Positions 8,933-36,147 of a DNA stretch of 64,000 bases are shown here, one piece after another (positions within the stretch are counted from its first letter, which is position 1; each line of letters begins with the position of its first letter). Position numbers and translations under genes: made by a program. The notes beneath the pieces are model-generated. The model was given only the letters and a program-made list of their open reading frames with translations, did not search any database and was not told where the DNA came from. Source of the DNA: Streptomyces sp. NBC_01754 (lineage in GTDB: Bacteria; Actinomycetota; Actinomycetes; Streptomycetales; Streptomycetaceae); the NCBI RefSeq assembly GCF_035918015.1, contig NZ_CP109132.1, forward strand, positions 2,170,001 to 2,234,000, given 5' to 3'.

Positions 8933-9655
8933 ATGGACGTCGCTTGGGAAGACCTCGGCTGGGAGCGGTTGGGCGAGCGCACGGGGCGCCGGCGCCTGCC
9001 CGGCTGGGACGCGACCGCCGCGCTGGTGGCCGGGACCGACCGCGCGCTGCTCTACGACACCGGCTCCACGCTCCGGGAGGGGGCCGCGCTGCGGGCCGGG
9101 GCCGAGGGTCTGCTCGGCCGGAGGGTGACGCATATCGCACTGAGCCACCCGCACTTCGACCATGTGCTGGGCACCGCCGCCTTCGCGGGTGCGGAGGTGT
9201 ACGGCGCGGTCGGCACGGCGGAGCTGCTGTCCCGGGGCGCGGCGGAGCTGCGCGCGGACGCGGTGCGCCACGGGATGGACGAGCGGGACGCCACGGCGGC
9301 GACGGACGCCCTGGTGGTCCCGCGCCACCAGGTGAGCGGCGAGTTGACGCTCGATCTCGGCGGCGGCCTCCAGGTGCTGCTGGCCAACGTGGGGCCGGGC
9401 CACACCGGCCATGATCTGGCGGTGCTGGTGCCGGGCTCCCCGGTCGTGGTGCTCTGCGGCGATCTGGTCGAGGAGTCCGGCGAACCGCAGGCCGGCCCCG
9501 ACGCCGTACCCGCCCACTGGCCGGCCGCACTGGACCGGCTGCTGGAGCTGGGCGGCGAGGACGCGCGGTACGTCCCGGGGCACGGGGCGGTGGTGGACGC
9601 GGCCTTCGTTCGGGCGCAGCGCGCATGGCTGGCGGCCCGGTCCGGCGTGTCGTGA
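8933..9655 (+). CDS. Metallo-beta-lactamase-fold hydrolase
   Basis: 240 residues. The zinc motif HPHFDH is at residues 72-77, with further ligands in the [13 protein letters not shown] segment and VPGHGAVVD near the C-terminus. These are the hallmarks of glyoxalase-II-like MBL hydrolases. The gene starts with ATG at 8933 and is divergent from hrcA, with about 55 bases between this ATG and the hrcA -35 element. It is the first plus-strand gene of the window and is followed 25 bases later by the DUF3097 gene, so these two may be cotranscribed. The substrate is not predictable; thioester or lactone hydrolysis are both possible. Confidence 0.82.
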
Positions 9656-9680
9656 ACGGGCCCCGGCCTATCGTCGGTCC

Positions 9681-10499
9681 ATGCGCAGCTACCAGCCGGA
9701 CCTGACCCCTCCGTGGAAGAGGTCCGCCCCCGTTCCCGAGGTACCCGCCGAGCCCGATCTGGTGGTGGAGGAAGTGTCCACCGGCTTCTGCGGTGCGGTG
9801 ATCCGGTGCGAGAAGACGGCCCAGGGGCCTGTGGTCACCCTGGAGGACCGTTTCGGCAAGCACCGGGTGTTTCCCATGGAGCCGCGTGGCTTCCTGCTGG
9901 AGGGCGAGGTCGTGACGCTGGTCCGCCCGTCGGCGGGCGGACCGGTCCGCCCGGCGCGTACGGCGTCCGGTTCGGTGGCCGTGCCCGGGGCGCGGGCGCG
10001 GGTGGCCCGGGCGGGCCGTATCTACGTGGAGGGGCGGCACGACGCCGAGCTCGTGGAGCGGGTCTGGGGCGACGACCTGCGCGTCGAGGGCGTGGTGGTG
10101 GAGTACCTGGAGGGCATCGACGACCTGCCGGCGATCGTGCGTGAGTTCGCCCCGGGCCCGGATGCCCGGCTCGGGGTGCTGGTCGACCATCTGGTGCCGG
10201 GGTCCAAGGAGTCCCGTATCGCCGCCCAGGTCGACGACGAGCACGTGCTCGTGGTCGGGCATCCGTACATCGACGTCTGGGAGGCCGTGAAGCCGTCGTC
10301 CGTGGGGATCGGCGCGTGGCCGGTGGTGCCGCGCGGCCAGGACTGGAAGACGGGGGTGTGCGGGGCTCTGGGGTGGCCGGAGAACACCGGGGCGGCCTGG
10401 CGGCACATCCTGTCCCGGGTCGGCTCGTACAAGGACCTGGAGCCGCAGCTGCTGGGCCGGGTCGAGGAACTGATCGACTTCGTCACCCTGCCCGGCTGA
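9681..10499 (+). CDS. DUF3097 family protein
   Basis: 272 residues from the ATG at 9681. The frame is open further upstream but that portion overlaps the preceding hydrolase gene. The sequence begins MRSYQPDLTPPWKR and contains RIYVEGRHDAELVERVWGDDLR and GVLVDHLVPGSKESRIA. I recognise this as the actinobacterial DUF3097 family. The EGxxDxxLVE and DxLxxG patterns resemble a Toprim fold, so a nucleic-acid-related role is possible, but this is inference. No membrane segment or signal peptide is seen. It converges on hemW, with a shared hairpin between them at 10508-10541. Confidence 0.8.
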   Translation: MRSYQPDLTPPWKRSAPVPEVPAEPDLVVEEVSTGFCGAVIRCEKTAQGPVVTLEDRFGKHRVFPMEPRGFLLEGEVVTLVRPSAGGPVRPARTASGSVAVPGARARVARAGRIYVEGRHDAELVERVWGDDLRVEGVVVEYLEGIDDLPAIVREFAPGPDARLGVLVDHLVPGSKESRIAAQVDDEHVLVVGHPYIDVWEAVKPSSVGIGAWPVVPRGQDWKTGVCGALGWPENTGAAWRHILSRVGSYKDLEPQLLGRVEELIDFVTLPG

Positions 10500-21032: not shown

Positions 21033-21293
21033 GTGCACGTACTCCCAAGGGCGGTTCTCACCTCGGGCCCCTGACAGCTGGACGTCGTTGTCGGAGCAGC
21101 GGCCCGCCGACGAATGAACATTCGATCACTGTTGTGACGTTCGAGGCAAACGTGGCAGGTCGGCGCGGGTTGCGCCGAGTGTTACCGAAGGTCCGAATTA
21201 ACGGTTTCCGCCTGTGCGCGCGTGTGGTGGTGTCTCACGCAGCTCGCCGACTCCACCCGTGCCGTACACCGTCTCCCCTCTCCCCCACTCCAC

Positions 21294-21342
21294 TCCCAGC
21301 TCCCAGCTCCCAGCTCCCAGCTCCCAGCTCCCAGCTCCCAGC
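21294..21342. repeat. 7-bp tandem repeat, seven perfect copies
   Basis: TCCCAGC is repeated seven times without a break, ending 9 bases before the stop codon of the N-acetyltransferase gene as read on the plus strand, i.e. just downstream of that gene. A unit length of 7 is not a codon multiple, in keeping with a non-coding slippage tract. Confidence 0.95.
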
Positions 21343-21351
21343 TCCCGAGCG

Positions 21352-22146
21352 TCACGCGTTCGGGTTCCGGCGGACCACGGGTACGCGGGACAGGCTCAGC
21401 CCGAAGTGCTCGCGGTAGGCGGCCAGCACTTCGGCATCGGTGTCGAGCGGCGTCTCGTGCCGTTCCCCCCGCACAGTGGTCACCAGGGTGCGTCCGCCGA
21501 GCGTCACGCGCCCGGTGGCTGTACACCGCGAGCAGACGAGCGACCGCGTGAAGTGGGAATCGGGTGAGGTGCGGTGATACCAGGCACCGGCCCGGAAGTC
21601 GGCCACCACCCGCGGCCGCAGATCCAGTCGGAACTGCGGCGATCCGTCGCGCACCAGATCCAGGTCCCCGCCCGGAGCCACCTGGAGACGGAACACACCA
21701 CTCGGGTCCCGCTGTTCGGCGCGGTCGTCCAGCGCGAGCGGCCGAAGGGCATGGTCGCCGAATCCGACGTCGGCCAGCCAGGGGCCGGTCCCGTCGTCGG
21801 TCCCCACCCGGATCGCCATGTGGTCGTAGGGGATGCCCAGCAGTCCGCCGTCGCCGAAGACCCTGGCCTGCAACAGCGTGACGCGGAAGCCGAGCCGGCG
21901 CAGCAACGCGGCGAAGGCGCCGTTGAGTTCGTAGCAGAAGCCGCCGCGTCCTCCCGTCACGATCTTGTCGACGAGCTTCTCCTCCTCCAGGACGATGTCC
22001 TCTCCGAGGTGGATCGAGAGGTTCTCGAACGGCACCGTCATCAGGTGACGGAGTTGCAGCTCTCTCAAGGCCTCCGCGTCGGCGCGGGCGGGGCGGCCGG
22101 CGCCGATGCGCTCCAGATAGACGTCTGCCCAGTGGTTCTCCCTCAT
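21352..22146 (-). CDS. nat: Arylamine N-acetyltransferase
   Basis: 264 residues. NAT enzymes transfer an acetyl group from acetyl-CoA to arylamines, hydrazines or, in antibiotic pathways, aminobenzoate units. The catalytic triad is visible: Cys71 in RGGFCYELNG, His109 in PYDHMAIRV and Asp126 in WLADVGFGD. Start ATG 22146 has GGGGAG upstream; the frame remains open to 22347 across the spacer. The first 92 bases plus the upstream spacer are part of the 456-bp repeat, and a second truncated copy of the 5' end lies at 25767-25858. Before the insertion the gene must have followed comEC directly with a 181-bp spacer. Confidence 0.9.
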   Translation of the reverse strand: MRENHWADVYLERIGAGRPARADAEALRELQLRHLMTVPFENLSIHLGEDIVLEEEKLVDKIVTGGRGGFCYELNGAFAALLRRLGFRVTLLQARVFGDGGLLGIPYDHMAIRVGTDDGTGPWLADVGFGDHALRPLALDDRAEQRDPSGVFRLQVAPGGDLDLVRDGSPQFRLDLRPRVVADFRAGAWYHRTSPDSHFTRSLVCSRCTATGRVTLGGRTLVTTVRGERHETPLDTDAEVLAAYREHFGLSLSRVPVVRRNPNA

Positions 22147-22510
22147 GGCCGAATTCTCCCCCGCTGCGGGGGACCACGTCACACGCCCCGCAACGCGCCC
22201 CGGGGTGCGCCCCCGGACCCGGCACGATCCGTCGGCCGGGGTGGCGGCTCGTACCCGGCGGCGAGTGACCGGTACGCGATACAGGAGGGAGACACCGCAC
22301 CGGCCGCCCGCGTGTCCATGAGCGTGTTCACGAGCGGCCCGCCGCACGCAACCCGGCCCCCGCGCCCGCGACGGCGATCGCCCCCTCGGTGTCCGTGCGC
22401 AGCACCTTCGCTCCCCCCGCCCTCAGCGCCTCGAGCGTACGAGGCGCCGGGTGGCCGTACGGATTGTCCGAGCCGCAGCTGATGAGCGCGAGCCGGGGAC
22501 GGGCACCACG
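22055..22510. repeat. 456-bp direct repeat, copy A (comEC 3' end / spacer / nat 5' end)
   Basis: This segment is repeated at 25767-26222 with a constant offset of 3712 bases and about four mismatches (two near 22150, one near 22166, one near 22398). It contains 92 bases of nat, the 181-base spacer and the last 183 bases of comEC. In this copy nat is intact and comEC is only a 3' fragment. Confidence 0.95.
22328..22510 (-). pseudogene. comEC 3' fragment (duplicated tail)
   Basis: The last 60 codons and stop of comEC (beginning GARPRLALISCGSDNPYGH) are duplicated here. The frame continues upstream only into island sequence with no ATG or GTG start, so no functional protein is expected. The full gene is at 26040-28655. 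Confidence 0.92.
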
Positions 22511-22733
22511 GGGCTCAAACGGTGAGTGCGCTTCGTCGCGACGCGCCTGCAAAAGCCGGAGCAACGGCCCCCAGAACGGAAAGAATCACCCACGTGACAA
22601 ACGAGATCTCCGTACGTTTGGAAGCCTCGGACACCAAGGCGAACGAAGGCGCACGTGCCCGCAACGCGTGGTCGCAGCGCTGTAACAGAGGGAGCCGCCT
22701 GCCTACGCGGGAAAGGTCCGTATGAACGCCGAC

Positions 22734-22759
22734 GGCCCGCGCCACTACGGACACGGGCC
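22734..22759 (-). terminator. Possible hairpin downstream of the HD-domain gene
   Basis: GGCCCG and CGGGCC are separated by 14 bases, 18 bases past the HD-gene stop. A short stem; the remaining stretch 22511-22733 holds no gene I can support. Confidence 0.4.
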
Positions 22760-22776
22760 ATCTTGGCGGAGGCCAG

Positions 22777-23361
22777 TCAGCGTAGGTAGGTCTGCTGCCA
22801 CTCGATCGACGACATGTTCAGTGCGGCCTCGGCGAGGGCCTGCGCGCTGGCCGTCTTAAGCTTGTCCTTGGACGTGTCGATCCAGTTCTGGACGTTGCCG
22901 CAGCCTTGTTCCCGGTACTCGACCGCCTGGACGAGACATTCGAGCTTGTCGGCATCACGGGCGCAGATCACTTCGAGGCTGTCGCCGTTCTCGTACTCGC
23001 TGACGACGCGCCCGATGCCGGCGGAAACGGCTGGGTGCGCTTCGGCCAGCTGATCCGCGGTGACCTTCTCGTTCGACGCGGCGTCGAGGTACCGGCGGCC
23101 GATGTGCGGGATGTCAGAGACGCGGGTCTCCTGGGTGTCGTGGAACACGCACATCAGGGCGACCTTTGCAGGGTCGGCGCCCTCCATCATCGCCAGGACG
23201 GATCCGATGACGGCCGTCCGGAAGGAGTGCTCCGCGATCGTCTCGGGGTCTTTGACGCCCGCGATCCACCAGCCGGACCGTTTGGCGCGCTTCAACATGC
23301 CCACCTCCAGCAGGTATCCCGCTGTGCCCTTGGCCTGCTCAGGTGTCGTCTCGTCCGCCAT
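22777..23361 (-). CDS. HD-domain phosphohydrolase (YfbR/HDDC2-like)
   Basis: 194 residues from ATG 23361, which has GGAGGG at 3-4 bases spacing. The metal-binding HD signature is present: His in AEHSFRTAVIGSVLAM, then the HD pair in CVFHDTQETRVSDIPHIGRRYL, and a later Asp in CARDADKLECLVQAVEY. This pattern is that of the small HD family that includes 5'-deoxynucleotidase YfbR, so dephosphorylation of (deoxy)nucleoside monophosphates is the likely activity. It lies inside the repeat-bounded island, read after the IS-interrupted ORF. An alternative GTG at 23418 would overlap the reconstructed stop of that ORF as GTGA, which hints at an ancestral coupled operon. Confidence 0.82.
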   Translation of the reverse strand: MADETTPEQAKGTAGYLLEVGMLKRAKRSGWWIAGVKDPETIAEHSFRTAVIGSVLAMMEGADPAKVALMCVFHDTQETRVSDIPHIGRRYLDAASNEKVTADQLAEAHPAVSAGIGRVVSEYENGDSLEVICARDADKLECLVQAVEYREQGCGNVQNWIDTSKDKLKTASAQALAEAALNMSSIEWQQTYLR

Positions 23362-23448
23362 GGTCCCTCCGGGGTCATTGGTGATCGCGTAGAACGTAAT
23401 GCACGGTCGCAAGGTCACGTCGGCCTTGCGGGGAAAGTCGCCCCTCGT

Positions 23449-23453
23449 CTAGG
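23449..23453. repeat. Target-site duplication of the IS, left copy (CTAGG)
   Basis: CTAGG directly precedes the left inverted repeat and recurs at 25027-25031 directly after the right one. Five bases, perfect. Confidence 0.85.
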
Positions 23454-25026
23454 CTTGAGATTTAACCTCTTCAAGATCGAATCTTGATCGGTTCGCCGGT
23501 TCCCCGGACAGCAGAGCGGCCTTCGCGCGATCATGTCTTCTCGCCAGAGTCAACACCGATCACCCGAAGGCCGTTGAAGTGAGCGTGCTGCATCCGGACG
23601 CCGACGTCGAGGCGCTGCCGTTGTTGTCCCGATTTCGTGAGCGGTTCTACAAGTGCCTGGACCGGCGTGCCGACGCGCTGTTCGAGCTGTCCGACGCGGT
23701 GATGTGCGCCGACCGGCCGGTCACCTCGCTGGTGGAGTTGTCCCTGGAGCCCGTCTTCCGCCGCGGCCATGGCGCGTTGTACGACGCGCTGTCCGAAGGT
23801 CGTGTCGATGAGGAGCGGTTGCGCGACCTCCTGGTCGACCAACTGCCTGCCGACGCCCCGCTGATGTTCGGCATCGACGCGACCACCTTTCCCCGTCCGA
23901 ACGCCGAGTGCTCACCGGATCGAGGTCTGCACTACGCGCCGTGCCGCTGCGACGGCGACCGCAAGGTGGTGCCGGGCTGGGAGTTCCAGTGGGCAACGGC
24001 TCTGGAGTGGGGAAGCTCCTCTTGGACATTGCCGGTCGACGCCCGCCGTCTGCCTGAGGGTTCCTGCCCGGTCGCCGCGACCGCGGCCCAGATCCGCGAC
24101 ATCTCCGACCGCCTGGAACGCCGAGGCCAGGAGGCAGACCGGCCGGCGCCGTTGTTCGTACTGGACCAGGGGTATGCCGCCGCAGCCTTGGTCCACGCTC
24201 TGGACGGGGCGCCAATCCAGACATTGGTGCGCATCGCCGGTGACCGGGTCTTCTATGACGGGCGCCCCGGCCCTCGCAAGCCCGGGCCCGGGCGCAACGG
24301 GGTGCACGGACAGCGTTTCGAACTGGCCGCCCCGGTCAACCTGCGCCGCGCCGACCAGCTGCTGATCGTCCCAGACACACGCCAATATGGACGAGTCGAG
24401 GTGCGGGCCTGGCACCGGATGCACCAGAAGGTGCACCGGACGGGCTACTTCGCGACGCTGGGCGCGAAGCTGTTCTCCCGGCTGCCGATCCTGGAGGGCA
24501 CCGTCATCGAGGTTCGCGTCGAACGCCTGCCGGACGGACGTGCTCCGCACCGCACGATGTGGCTGTGGCATCACGGCCCCGAGCTGCCCGACCTGGACAT
24601 CTGCTGGCGAGCCTACCTGCGGCGCTTCGACATGGAGCACACCTTCAAACTGATGAAGTCCCAGCTCGGCTGGACCGCCGCTCGCCTGCGCCACCCCGAG
24701 CAAGCAGCCCGCTGGACCTGGCTCCTACTCGCCGCCTACGCCCAACTCCGCCTCGCCCGCGGCCTGGTCGGCGACCTGCGACGCCCATGGGAACGCCGGC
24801 CCCGCCCCGGCAAGCCGCTCACCCCCTACCGGGTCCGTCGTGCATTTCGCCACCTCCGAGATCGACTGGGCACCCCCAGCCGCGTGCCGAAAACGAGTCA
24901 CCCCGGCCCTGGCCGCCCGCCGGGCGGCAAGAACGCCCCAGCTCCGCGCCACCGACTCGGATCCGAACTTCGCAAATCGGGTGCACCGGCGACCCAGAAG
25001 CGGAAGAAGAAGGGTTAAATCTCAAG
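23454..25026 (+). mobile_element. Complete insertion sequence, 1,573 bp, DDE transposase
   Basis: Ends are the 14-bp perfect inverted repeats CTTGAGATTTAACC (23454-23467) and its complement (25013-25026), flanked by the 5-bp duplication CTAGG. One transposase ORF fills the element and its TAA stop lies inside the right repeat. Upstream of the ORF an inverted repeat (CGGCCTTCG at 23517-23525 and CGAAGGCCG at 23565-23573) could limit read-through expression. The element looks intact and recent, since both ends and the duplication are perfect. The transposase suggests the IS701/IS4-like group. Confidence 0.92.
23579..25018 (+). CDS. IS transposase (IS701/IS4-like DDE)
   Basis: 479 residues. The RNase-H-like DDE triad can be placed at Asp100 (MFGIDATTFPRP), Asp196 (PLFVLDQGYA) and Glu353 (RRFDMEHTFKLMKSQLGW), with the Y-x-x-x-x-x-R-like helix of IS4-type enzymes following the Glu. 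The C-terminal 60 residues are Pro/Arg/Lys rich, ending KRKKKG. The GTG start has no good ribosome binding site and sits just after a hairpin; an upstream start is not available in frame. I place it in the IS701-like group from memory of similar actinobacterial transposases; the family name needs a database check. Confidence 0.88.
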   Translation: MSVLHPDADVEALPLLSRFRERFYKCLDRRADALFELSDAVMCADRPVTSLVELSLEPVFRRGHGALYDALSEGRVDEERLRDLLVDQLPADAPLMFGIDATTFPRPNAECSPDRGLHYAPCRCDGDRKVVPGWEFQWATALEWGSSSWTLPVDARRLPEGSCPVAATAAQIRDISDRLERRGQEADRPAPLFVLDQGYAAAALVHALDGAPIQTLVRIAGDRVFYDGRPGPRKPGPGRNGVHGQRFELAAPVNLRRADQLLIVPDTRQYGRVEVRAWHRMHQKVHRTGYFATLGAKLFSRLPILEGTVIEVRVERLPDGRAPHRTMWLWHHGPELPDLDICWRAYLRRFDMEHTFKLMKSQLGWTAARLRHPEQAARWTWLLLAAYAQLRLARGLVGDLRRPWERRPRPGKPLTPYRVRRAFRHLRDRLGTPSRVPKTSHPGPGRPPGGKNAPAPRHRLGSELRKSGAPATQKRKKKG

Positions 25027-25310
25027 CTAGGAGTAGCAGGGCTTGGTGACGGAGGCGCTTCGTGAGTTGGGGGGGCGGCCTGCGGTAGCCAGTGGTGCGT
25101 AGCCAGGAGAGCCCACAGGGTGTGTGCGTACAGGTCTACGTATCCGGGGGCTTGGTGGAGTCCTCGGATCAGGTGCCGGAAGAGTGTGACCGGTTCCCAG
25201 TCGGTTCGCTCGCGCATGAACGTGTCGTCGGGCTGAGCTTCGGGAAGGGCTCCGAGCCAGTAGGCCCAGTAGGTCAGGTTCGCGGATTCGGCGGTGTCGT
25301 CGTCGATCAT
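25027..25310 (-). pseudogene. Small island ORF of unknown function, 3' end disrupted by the IS
   Basis: Starts ATG 25310, overlapping the stop of the upstream ORF as ATGA. The sequence begins MIDDDTAESANLTYWAYWLG and includes TLFRHLIRGLHQAPGYVDLY and HTLWALLATHHWLPQ. The IS cuts it near its end: with the IS and one CTAGG removed, the frame continues 13 codons and stops at 23415, giving 105 residues. In the present sequence the frame runs on into the IS to 24819, adding about 70 unrelated residues. The body resembles C-terminal parts of some Streptomyces regulatory proteins as I remember them, but I cannot name a family. Confidence 0.65.
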
Positions 25311-25765
25311 CGCGCGGTGATGAAGTCCGACAGAGGCTGGGTGTCGCCTTGACGGACGAGCGCGGTTGCGGTGGATCGGGCTTCTGCCCAATGAGGGGTC
25401 CAGCCACGGGAGATCAGGGTGTCTCGGCGCGCGTGGAGTGCGTGGGCGCTCAGCCGCAGGACCGGACCCGGGAGCCGGATCGGCGGCGGGGCCGTCTTCA
25501 CGGTCCGCACCAGGGCGACGACCTTCTCCACGGTCATGCGGCTGAGAGCAAGCAGCCGCTTGAACCAGTCGATCGGGGAGTCCACGATCCACACCACCTG
25601 CACCACGCTGTCCAGCACCGCGGCCGGGCGTACACGGCCGAGCTTCAAGGCCATAGCAGCCGCGGTGGTTGGCCGGTCGTGGGCCGGCTTGTCGGTGTAC
25701 CGGGCGAAGTCACGGGAGAGGGCCGCGAAGAACCCGTCGTGGCCGATGAGCTCCAGGCCCGTCAT
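25307..25765 (-). CDS. Island ORF of unknown function, fused in frame to the nat 5' fragment
   Basis: 152 residues from ATG 25765, ending in an ATGA overlap with the next ORF. Helical and basic, with segments FFAALSRDFARYTDKPAHDRP, SPIDWFKRLLALSRMTVEKVVALV and ISRGWTPHWAEARSTATALV. The ATG lies one base outside the 456-bp repeat, and the frame is continuous with the truncated nat gene. Translation could therefore begin at the nat ATG (25858), giving a 183-residue chimera whose first 30 residues are from NAT. Either this is the genuine start or the true N-terminus was lost at the junction. No recognised domain. Confidence 0.55.
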   Translation of the reverse strand: MTGLELIGHDGFFAALSRDFARYTDKPAHDRPTTAAAMALKLGRVRPAAVLDSVVQVVWIVDSPIDWFKRLLALSRMTVEKVVALVRTVKTAPPPIRLPGPVLRLSAHALHARRDTLISRGWTPHWAEARSTATALVRQGDTQPLSDFITAR

Positions 25766-25766
25766 G

Positions 25767-25858
25767 TGCAGCTCTCTCAAGGCCTCCGCGTCGGCGCGGG
25801 CGGGGCGGCCGGCGCCGATGCGCTCCAGATAGACGTCTGCCCAGTGGTTCTCCCTCAT
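25767..25858 (-). pseudogene. nat 5' fragment (first 30 codons)
   Basis: ATG at 25858 and the following codons (MRENHWADVYLERIG...) are the duplicated beginning of the arylamine N-acetyltransferase gene. It keeps the nat ribosome binding site and runs in frame into the island ORF. Confidence 0.9.
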
Positions 25859-26222
25859 GGCCAGATTCTCCCCCGCTGCGAGGGACCACGTCACACGCCC
25901 CGCAACGCGCCCCGGGGTGCGCCCCCGGACCCGGCACGATCCGTCGGCCGGGGTGGCGGCTCGTACCCGGCGGCGAGTGACCGGTACGCGATACAGGAGG
26001 GAGACACCGCACCGGCCGCCCGCGTGTCCATGAGCGTGTTCACGAGCGGCCCGCCGCACGCAACCCGGCCCCCGCGCCCGCGACGGCGATCGCCCCCTCG
26101 GTGTCCGTACGCAGCACCTTCGCTCCCCCCGCCCTCAGCGCCTCGAGCGTACGAGGCGCCGGGTGGCCGTACGGATTGTCCGAGCCGCAGCTGATGAGCG
26201 CGAGCCGGGGACGGGCACCACG
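25767..26222. repeat. 456-bp direct repeat, copy B (comEC 3' end / spacer / nat 5' end)
   Basis: Second copy of the segment at 22055-22510, offset 3712, about 99% identical. Here comEC is intact and nat is only a 5' fragment. Confidence 0.95.
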
Positions 26223-28655
26223 CAGGAGCGCTCCGTCCTGGTAGGCGGATCCGTGGTGCGCCACTTTGAGGACGTCCACCCGGGGCAGTGCCGGGTAGCG
26301 GCGCAGGAGCCCTTGCTGGGCCCGGGGTTCCAGATCGCCCAGGAGCAGTAGGGTCAGCGCGCCGGACCGCACGAACAGGGTGAGGCTGGAGTCGTTGGGC
26401 TCCGTCACGAGGTATGTTCCGGCGCCCGGCTCCTGGGCCGGCGGCCAGAGGACCTGCCAGTCGAGCGGCCCGAACCGGCGACGCTCCCCCTGCACGGCCT
26501 GGACGACGGGGATGTGTGCCGCCGCGGCCGTCCTCCTCACGAACGCCGCCTGCTCGGCCGGTTTCTGCAGCGCCGTCGTCTGGATGGCGCCGATCTCCCG
26601 CCCTCGCAACGCCCCCGGCAGGCCTCGTACATGGTCGGCGTGAAAGTGCGTGAGCAGCAGGAGCGGCACACGCGTGATACCGAGATCGCGCAGGCACCGG
26701 TCGACCGGCCCGGGGTCGGGGCCGGTGTCGACGACGACTCCGGCGCCCTTTCCGGCGGCGAGCACCATGGCGTCCCCCTGCCCCACGTCGCACAGCGCGA
26801 ACGCCCAGCCGGGCGGCGGCCACCCGGTCATGACCCTGGTGAGCGGCGCGGGTCTGAGCACCGCGAGGACCAGGAGGAGCGCGGCGGCCGAGCAGATCCA
26901 GGGGTGACGGGCCAGTCGGCGGGCGGACAGCACCAGCACGGCGGTGACGACGGCCAGCAGTGCGGCGCCCCGCCAGCCGCCGGGCCAGTCGGTCTGGGCC
27001 CCGGGCAGGGACGCTCCGGTGCGGGCGACCGAGGCGATCCACCCGACCGGCCAGCCGGCGACCGCGGCCAGCACCTGGGCCGACGGCATCGACACCGGTG
27101 CCACGGCCAGCGCGGCGAACCCCAGGACGGTGGCGGGCGCCACGGCGAACTCCGCCAGGAGGTTGCACGGGATCGCCACCAGGCTCACCCGGGAGGCGAG
27201 GACCACGATCACCGGGGCGCAGACCGCCTGGGCGGCAGCCGCCGCGGCCAGCACCTCGGCGAGCCTCCTCGGGACCCCGCGCCGCTGCAGTGCGGTGCTC
27301 CATCCCGGGGCGAGGGTCAGCAGGGCCCCGGTGGCCAGCACGGACAGCAGGAAGCCGTAACTGCGGGCCAGCCAGGGGTCGTAGAGCACCAGCAGGAGAA
27401 CCGCCGCGGCCAGGGCGGGGAGCAGTGATCTGCGTCGGCCCGTGCCGATGGCGAGCAGGGTGATCAGTCCGCAGGCCGCGGCGCGCAGAACGCTCGGCTC
27501 GGGACGGCAGACGACCACGAAGGCGAGGGCTACGGCACCCCCGGTCAGCGCGGTCAGACGCAGCGAAATACCCAGGCGCGGCGCCAGGCCCCGGCGTTCG
27601 CTGCGCAGGGCGGTTCCCGGTGGCCCGATGAGAAGGAAGAGCAGGATCGACAGGTTGGCGCCCGAGACCGACAACAGATGAGTGAGGTCGGTGGCCTTGA
27701 AGGCGTCGTGGAGATCGGGCGTGACCTTGGAGGTGTCACCGACCACCAGTCCCGGCAGGAGGGCCCGCGCATCGGCGTCGAGCCCGTCCGTGGCTTTGCG
27801 CAGACCGGCCCGCAGCCGCCCTGCGGCGCGCTGCACCCGGGTCGGCGCCCTGATGACCTGGGGTGGTCCGCCCGCGTCCGCCCGGACCACAGCCGCGATG
27901 CGCTCGCCCGCGTGGCGCGGCGGCGCGAACCGGCCACTGACGCGGAGCCCGGTCGAGGGAAGCAGCCGCTGCCACCGGTCCACGGCCTTGCCCGGCGAGA
28001 CCATGACGAGCACCGGGGTACGCAGCCGGGTGACGGAACCGTCGGGGGCGGTGAGCCGGGTGACTTCGGCGTCCAGCAGCAGGGAGGCGGGCGTGCTGTG
28101 GTCGCCCCGGACCTGAGGCCGGGTCCTGCGAGGGTCGGACGTGACCGTCACTTCCGCCTCGGCACGGGCGAAGCTCTGGGCGAGGCCGGGCACGGGTCCG
28201 CTCCGGGTGTCGGCTCCGTGCAGCCCGGCGGCCGTCGCCCCTGCCGCCGCGCACAGCAGCGCCGCGGCAGCGGCGGTGCCCCGCCACCACGCGTACGGGG
28301 GAACGCCACCACCAGGCCCGGCTCTTCCTGGCGGGCCGCCGCCAGGCCCGGCGGCGGCCGGTGCGCCGCTGCTGGGCCCGGCTCCGCCGGGCCGGACACC
28401 CCGGTTCCGCCTCGTGCGGCCGGCCACCCACGCCCAGCCCGCGATCGCCAGTGCGGCGCCGACGCAGAGGGCGGCACCCGGAGCCACCCACCGGCCCGGT
28501 ACATCCAGGGCGAGCGCCGCGGCAGCCCAGGCCGCGAGAGCGGGCGGGACGAGCCGGAGGTCGAGCGGTCCCTCCCGCTGCGGATCGGCCTCACCCAGCC
28601 GGCGCCCCGAGGCGGCGTGGACATCAGGGGCGTTCATGACCGGGCCGCCGCTCAC
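26040..28655 (-). CDS. comEC: ComEC/Rec2-type DNA-uptake membrane channel with C-terminal MBL domain
   Basis: 871 residues. N-terminal hydrophobic helices and an OB-like region precede the competence core (DLTHLLSVSGANLSILLFLLIG, the signature loop), followed by many transmembrane helices to about residue 590. The C-terminal 270 residues are a metallo-beta-lactamase domain with HFHADH in LLTHFHADHVRGLPGAL, a likely nuclease. ComEC moves single-stranded DNA across the membrane. The GTG start overlaps the comEA stop (GTGA); ATG 28637 is an alternative. It reads on from comEA. Its last 183 bases belong to repeat copy B. Natural competence is not established in Streptomyces, so its role here is open. 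Confidence 0.9.
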   Translation of the reverse strand: MSGGPVMNAPDVHAASGRRLGEADPQREGPLDLRLVPPALAAWAAAALALDVPGRWVAPGAALCVGAALAIAGWAWVAGRTRRNRGVRPGGAGPSSGAPAAAGPGGGPPGRAGPGGGVPPYAWWRGTAAAAALLCAAAGATAAGLHGADTRSGPVPGLAQSFARAEAEVTVTSDPRRTRPQVRGDHSTPASLLLDAEVTRLTAPDGSVTRLRTPVLVMVSPGKAVDRWQRLLPSTGLRVSGRFAPPRHAGERIAAVVRADAGGPPQVIRAPTRVQRAAGRLRAGLRKATDGLDADARALLPGLVVGDTSKVTPDLHDAFKATDLTHLLSVSGANLSILLFLLIGPPGTALRSERRGLAPRLGISLRLTALTGGAVALAFVVVCRPEPSVLRAAACGLITLLAIGTGRRRSLLPALAAAVLLLVLYDPWLARSYGFLLSVLATGALLTLAPGWSTALQRRGVPRRLAEVLAAAAAAQAVCAPVIVVLASRVSLVAIPCNLLAEFAVAPATVLGFAALAVAPVSMPSAQVLAAVAGWPVGWIASVARTGASLPGAQTDWPGGWRGAALLAVVTAVLVLSARRLARHPWICSAAALLLVLAVLRPAPLTRVMTGWPPPGWAFALCDVGQGDAMVLAAGKGAGVVVDTGPDPGPVDRCLRDLGITRVPLLLLTHFHADHVRGLPGALRGREIGAIQTTALQKPAEQAAFVRRTAAAAHIPVVQAVQGERRRFGPLDWQVLWPPAQEPGAGTYLVTEPNDSSLTLFVRSGALTLLLLGDLEPRAQQGLLRRYPALPRVDVLKVAHHGSAYQDGALLRGARPRLALISCGSDNPYGHPAPRTLEALRAGGAKVLRTDTEGAIAVAGAGAGLRAAGRS

Positions 28656-35298: not shown

Positions 35299-35306
35299 CC
35301 TCACTG

Positions 35307-35379
35307 TGGAGCTAAGGAGAATTGAACTCCTGACCTCCTGCATGCCATGCAGGCGCTCTACCAACTGAGCTATAGCCCC
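35307..35379 (-). tRNA. tRNA-Ala(GGC), copy 1
   Basis: 73 bases, beginning GGGGCTATAGCTCAGTTGG. The cloverleaf closes: acceptor GGGGCTA/TAGCTCC with discriminator A, D-arm AGCTCAGTTGGTAGAGC, anticodon stem CCTGC-ATGGCAT-GCAGG with anticodon GGC, T-arm AGGAGTTCAATTCTCCT. CCA is not encoded. Identical to the copy at 36075-36147. Confidence 0.96.
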
Positions 35380-36069: not shown

Positions 36070-36074
36070 CACTG

Positions 36075-36147
36075 TGGAGCTAAGGAGAATTGAACTCCTG
36101 ACCTCCTGCATGCCATGCAGGCGCTCTACCAACTGAGCTATAGCCCC
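36075..36147 (-). tRNA. tRNA-Ala(GGC), copy 2
   Basis: Identical over all 73 bases to the copy at 35307-35379, anticodon GGC, no encoded CCA. The immediate 3' flank CACAGTGA is also shared between the two copies, whereas upstream flanks differ. Confidence 0.96.

Follow-up and report, generated by a model that had tools for sequence, protein, structure and literature searches.

A circle that carries homology to the chromosome enters it by Campbell integration (insertion-duplication), which leaves the homology on both sides of the insert and keeps genes whole if this homology spans a gene boundary. The term "insertion with long target duplication" reportedly originates with Nobusato et al. 2000 (Gene 259:99-108), who are said to have used it for restriction-modification genes of Helicobacter pylori. 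In the available text of several reports, members of this class are H. pylori restriction-modification genes bracketed by long direct repeats of the target (PMC1643837, PMC4978471, PMC3031569), the restriction-modification unit being described as a frequent rather than a strictly defining association of such inserts (PMC1643837). In Streptomyces ambofaciens, five insertions of 30 bp to 18.8 kb are reported at healed double-strand breaks and are linked to non-homologous end joining (PMC5869714, in the part available). The locus considered here lies in Streptomyces sp. NBC_01754, within a window of 64,000 nucleotides (the whole stretch analysed, positions 2,170,001 to 2,234,000 of contig NZ_CP109132.1, assembly GCF_035918015.1). 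In this window the junction between comEC and nat, the gene of an arylamine N-acetyltransferase, is present twice and brackets an island of 3,256 bp, a structure that appears to fit the class of insertions with long target duplication known from H. pylori.

The segment 22055-22510 recurs at 25767-26222 with an offset of 3712, and BLASTN within the window aligns the two copies without gaps and exactly at the coordinates of the original prediction, 452 of 456 positions being identical (E = 0.0) and the mismatches falling at 22151, 22152, 22169 and 22397. The repeats far exceed the target duplication of a transposon, as had also been predicted, and in this they resemble those of the H. pylori class. 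Comparison of the 64-kb window with itself gives the junction as its longest repeat, a match far beyond chance, and the whole-genome assembly (two contigs, with a chromosome of 7,738,802 bp) contains two copies, the remaining two matches being 46 and 33 bases long. Read along the minus strand, intact comEC (28655-26040) is followed by a spacer of 182 bp, nat codons 1-31 and the island (25766-22511), and then by the 3' end of comEC (61 codons, stop included), a second 182-bp spacer and the intact nat gene (22146-21352). One half of each repeat copy is a dead gene fragment and both parental genes are whole; the predicted pairing of an intact nat with a comEC tail in copy 1, and of an intact comEC with a nat 5' fragment in copy 2, is confirmed, the intact genes matching PF00797 and PF03772. 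The features of the junction are the following:

21352..22146, minus strand: nat, arylamine N-acetyltransferase, intact, 264 amino acids (PF00797, E = 2.4e-62)
22055..22510, minus strand: repeat copy 1, intact nat 5' end, 182-bp spacer and vestigial comEC 3' end (452/456 to copy 2)
22328..22510, minus strand: vestigial comEC 3' fragment, 183 bp, 61 codons including the stop (self-alignment and reading frame)
25767..25858, minus strand: vestigial nat 5' fragment, 92 bp, about 31 codons (self-alignment)
25767..26222, minus strand: repeat copy 2, vestigial nat 5' end, spacer and intact comEC 3' end (452/456 to copy 1)
26040..28655, minus strand: comEC, intact, 871 amino acids (PF03772, E = 1.3e-38, and a metallo-beta-lactamase domain)

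Both intact genes have their nearest counterparts in Streptomyces sp. SirexAA-E (locus L118), with which nat aligns over residues 1-263 at 81 % and ComEC over residues 2-859 at 85 % amino acid identity. The nat 5' fragment reads in frame into an open reading frame (ORF) of the island (25307-25858), the predicted product of 183 amino acids being probably spurious. Immediately downstream of nat, a tandem array of the heptamer CTCCCAG occupies 21293-21346 of the window.

The state of the target before the insertion can be read from 25 nat loci of close relatives, obtained from a scan of 84,980 species genomes, 24 of them titled Streptomyces and one [Kitasatospora] papulosa. At 22 of the 25 loci comEC lies upstream of nat in the same orientation (the exceptions are L132, L137 and L141), which supports the comEC-nat order that had been proposed as ancestral. 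However, a PNPOx-like gene in antisense (convergent) orientation stands between the two at 15 of the 25 loci, including that of SirexAA-E, and the immediate ancestor was a junction already without it. The other comEC-nat loci have a short spacer in six cases, five of 132-183 bp and one (L140) of about 88 bp when counted from the end of the comEC match to nat, and in one case a BKACE-family gene (L138, 8255-9980) in the place of the PNPOx-like gene of other relatives. Since neither repeat copy of the window contains the PNPOx-like gene and both share the PNPOx-less spacer, its absence predates the duplication; nor did a search detect the gene in the rest of the genome, a search that has no positive control there and whose query matches 15 of the 25 relatives. 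The junction is single at all 22 comEC-nat loci and doubled at none, and at none of the 25 nat loci does an HD-domain or transposase gene match at this place. Among the matches listed for 199 genomes of the genus (up to three candidates scored in each), the same junction part occurs twice in NBC_01754 itself and in no other, while a nat search of 392 genus genomes at an E limit of 1e-100 is uninformative on doubled junctions. An exact match of 18 bp between L130 and the HD-domain gene of the island was dismissed as chance. At L132 (Streptomyces sp. or43, 9291-9935), where no comEC was found, the start of nat faces an inverted nat fragment, with a perfect inverted repeat of 146 bp; this is either a further rearrangement at this site or an error in the assembly.

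The two repeat copies differ by 0.9 % (95 % confidence interval 0.2-2.2 %), whereas the nearest relatives are about 81-86 % identical at this locus, i.e. about 14-19 % different. The duplication would therefore be young on the scale of the relatives' divergence, unless gene conversion has kept the copies alike. At the three differences within the spacer, read by eye, copy 1, which is joined to the intact nat, matches SirexAA-E, and copy 2, beside the dead nat fragment, is derived. At the fourth difference, in the comEC tail, SirexAA-E carries the base of copy 2, which is joined to the intact comEC; taken alone, this would place the change in the vestigial comEC tail of copy 1.

The island (22511-25766) is a degraded XRE-HD fragment with an insertion sequence inside, and has the following parts:

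22511..22776: left end of the island, 266 bp, 65 % guanine plus cytosine (GC), without convincing relative (sequence searches)
22777..23364, minus strand: HD-domain gene (HD_3, YfbR-like), 195 codons from ATG, the ORF being extendable to 23418 (PF13023, E = 2.5e-25)
23378..23452, minus strand: last ~25 codons of an XRE-type regulator, severed by the insertion sequence (tblastn with three Streptomyces plasmid XRE proteins)
23453..25026, plus strand: insertion sequence of the NF041680 family, distantly IS701-like, with a transposase ORF at 23579-25018 (NF041680, 510 bits against a cut-off of 440; PF13546)
25071..25452, minus strand: C-terminal half of the XRE-type regulator, frameshifted near 25319 (tblastn with three intact plasmid regulators)
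25453..25766, minus strand: right end of the island, 314 bp, an open frame (ATG at 25766-25764) in the same phase as the nat fragment (sequence searches)

The HD gene, whose homologues in other genomes of the genus reach 85 % amino acid identity, is the sole whole gene of the XRE-HD pair in the island; the regulator is truncated, frameshifted and split by the insertion sequence. About 190 N-terminal residues of the regulator are absent, and strong DNA matches in relatives end at about 25451. The insertion sequence, with ends read from the sequence, is bracketed by probable CTAG target repeats (23449-23452 and 25027-25030); it has no second close copy in the genome, which contains elsewhere just partial matches of 67-71 % at one place. 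The GC content is 63-66 % in the HD and XRE parts and the left end, 68 % in the insertion sequence and 70 % in the right end, compared with 75 % in the repeats and 71 % in the window. The low values of the HD and XRE parts and the left end indicate foreign-looking DNA, and to this extent the predicted insertion of foreign DNA holds, although it brought no coherent cargo.

Neither end of the island has a convincing relative in the 392 genus genomes (short matches occur in three other genomes) or among plasmids (one match of 37 bases), and neither matches Pfam; a search of the right end against the protein collection gave 320 candidates, among which the sole match was the window's own protein. 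No second copy of any island part was found elsewhere in the genome, just short or distant matches. Seven ORFs of the island were scanned and contained no integrase or resolvase and no replication, transfer or partition gene; no tRNA was found at the insertion, so that the predicted absence of both integrase and tRNA is borne out. Searches likewise gave no support to an RNA element at this insertion. The HD protein had no match in a phage search, and PADLOC gave none for this protein or for two intact XRE relatives.

Elsewhere, the XRE-HD pair belongs to the ordinary accessory DNA of Streptomyces, plasmids included. Relatives of the HD gene occur in 52 plasmid records, 30 of them from Streptomyces, and an XRE gene stands beside the HD gene in three of the four plasmid regions read. 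The regulator directly precedes the HD gene elsewhere: among 24 cassette loci (20 of the 29 non-self loci of the genus search and four of the 52 plasmid records) it is nearly full-length at 18, one of which is the source of the query, partial at three and missing from three. At none of the 24 is the cassette bracketed by a direct repeat both at least 100 bp long and at least 90 % identical within flanks of at most about 8 kb per side, shorter at some contig ends, beyond which repeats would escape detection. Weaker bracketing repeats of 68-109 bp and 75-83 % identity are present at four of the 24 (L150, L152, L162 and L163). The cassette, as judged by these flanks, does not look like a target-doubling unit. 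The suggestion that the layout represents a neutral-site insertion mechanism consequently finds no support, neither in the 22 comEC-nat loci nor around the cassette. At L152 (6863-8312), a direct repeat of 84 bp (81 %) flanks a decayed XRE-HD cassette on both sides, in a stretch of about 1.4 kb, and is perhaps an older event or a dispersed repeat. On a plasmid of S. chartreusis the XRE-HD pair stands beside a cluster of the type for ribosomally synthesised and post-translationally modified peptides (RiPPs) with ATP-grasp tgmA/B/C, and on a plasmid of S. angustmyceticus an HD gene without XRE match is found beside a lanthipeptide-type RiPP cluster. In another part of the window, two tRNA-Ala(GGC) genes (35306-35379 and 36074-36147) lie in an 83-bp direct repeat (98.8 % identical) with a spacing of 768 bp.

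The original prediction had left the choice between single-crossover integration of a circle and a repair-linked duplication, and both can produce the locus. The explanation that we favour, though with some hesitation, is that a single repair- or replication-coupled capture event doubled the junction and brought the island. In the order of events and by the repair route that we infer, a replication end that had broken or stalled near comEC and nat would have been extended on the sister chromosome and joined to one or more captured fragments. The end would then have been rejoined, or the polymerase would have switched back, about 456 bp upstream of its point of departure, which would copy the junction twice and leave both genes whole, while the insertion sequence would have interrupted what was left of the regulator, whether at this locus or prior to arrival. 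Capture is preferred over a circle on the grounds that a single event suffices, that the patchwork cargo breaks off within a gene, that two Ku-family genes are present in the genome and that insertions are reported in S. ambofaciens, which belongs to the same genus and where DNA was captured at healed breaks (PMC5869714, as far as its available text goes). A regulator that breaks off within the gene and adjoins 314 bp for which no convincing relative was found is what captured fragments would be expected to give. Several points nevertheless weigh against capture. The S. ambofaciens inserts are endogenous DNA, and the available part of the report describes no target duplication for them (PMC5869714); a duplication of 456 bp needs extra end extension or template switching, which is a hypothetical step. 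Neither the right end of the island nor the insertion sequence is clearly foreign by composition. The best other nat match among the 392 genus genomes is just 82 %, so that the searched set contains no empty-site sister strain. Finally, at the difference in the comEC tail, a third codon position, 15 of the 22 relatives have the base of copy 1, six that of copy 2 and one neither, which makes the polarity there unsure; moreover, the same polarity would be expected whether the redundant halves have decayed or a crossover took place with a donor of slightly different sequence.

Such a crossover is the core of the closest alternative, a Campbell-type integration of a circle that carried at least 456 bp of the comEC-nat junction from a near-identical strain together with XRE-HD plasmid DNA, most of the plasmid being perhaps deleted later. 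This route is possible but rather doubtful. Its product has precisely this layout, in which the two genes remain intact and the homology is directly repeated; relatives of the HD gene do reside on plasmids, with the XRE gene beside them in three of the four regions read, and the four differences fit a donor diverged by about 1 %, as does their polarity relative to SirexAA-E. However, it requires a plasmid that had previously captured the junction in its PNPOx-less form, and none of 72,556 PLSDB plasmid records carries the junction, the sole match being a 71-bp stretch of nat at 76 %; a second plasmid search, for near matches, gave none. While the product is that of Campbell integration, no plasmid functions were found in the scanned ORFs of the island, and no circle is known. 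Sequence alone cannot separate capture from circle integration, and the evidence is not decisive. It is improbable that a larger comEC-nat segment was duplicated in tandem and that the inner part, from nat 3' to comEC 5', was then deleted and replaced by the island. Big duplications and amplifications do occur in Streptomyces (PMC5869714, in the part available), and the comEC-nat spacer varies among the 22 loci, but this route takes more steps, and at the sensitivity of the window self-comparison the island contains no residual nat 3' or comEC 5' sequence. A site-specific integrative element (an actinomycete integrative and conjugative element, or AICE, a prophage or a satellite) whose attachment site restores a gene end would account for the flanking direct repeats and the restored gene end; it is most unlikely given that neither integrase nor resolvase was found in the seven island ORFs scanned, that no tRNA was found and that the repeat spans two gene ends and a spacer, as against the repeats of 42 and 43 nt that the available text of PMC6722414 gives for two Streptomyces ICE/AICE. 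An assembly artefact is just as hard to credit: there is just one assembly, but the genome is near-complete, the copies differ at four sites and each has unique flanks on both sides. A composite transposon was rejected, as it needs identical insertion sequences at both ends, whereas here one lies inside and the repeats are comEC/nat sequence. These last three readings (site-specific element, assembly error and composite transposon) match the locus less well than the capture or circle routes.

Whichever of these two routes was taken, the locus departs from the H. pylori class in its Streptomyces host and in its cargo, a broken XRE-HD pair with an insertion sequence in which no restriction-modification unit was recognised. 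Moreover, that class is defined by comparison with the empty site, whereas here the single junctions belong to relatives of which even the nearest are just about 81-86 % identical. In the literature texts searched, none of the papers that contain "long target duplication" has Streptomyces in its title and no paper joins Streptomyces, comEC and arylamine N-acetyltransferase, and broader searches gave nothing relevant among the matches listed.

The insertion has the look of an isolated accident, of a type known from other bacteria. It is very improbable that Streptomyces repeatedly acquires genes by a Ku- or replication-dependent route in which a few hundred target bases are doubled at gene boundaries and the neighbours stay unbroken; such a route, if real, would be comparable to the restriction-modification insertions of H. 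pylori, yet independent of such genes. As a single case the locus is mainly a well-dated scar; it cleanly exemplifies the arrival of DNA without visible integrase and with both neighbours undamaged, in an organism that possesses end-joining genes. Should scars of this kind recur, they would account for some of the gene flux that proceeds in Streptomyces without integrases, and a simple scan of genomes could count them.

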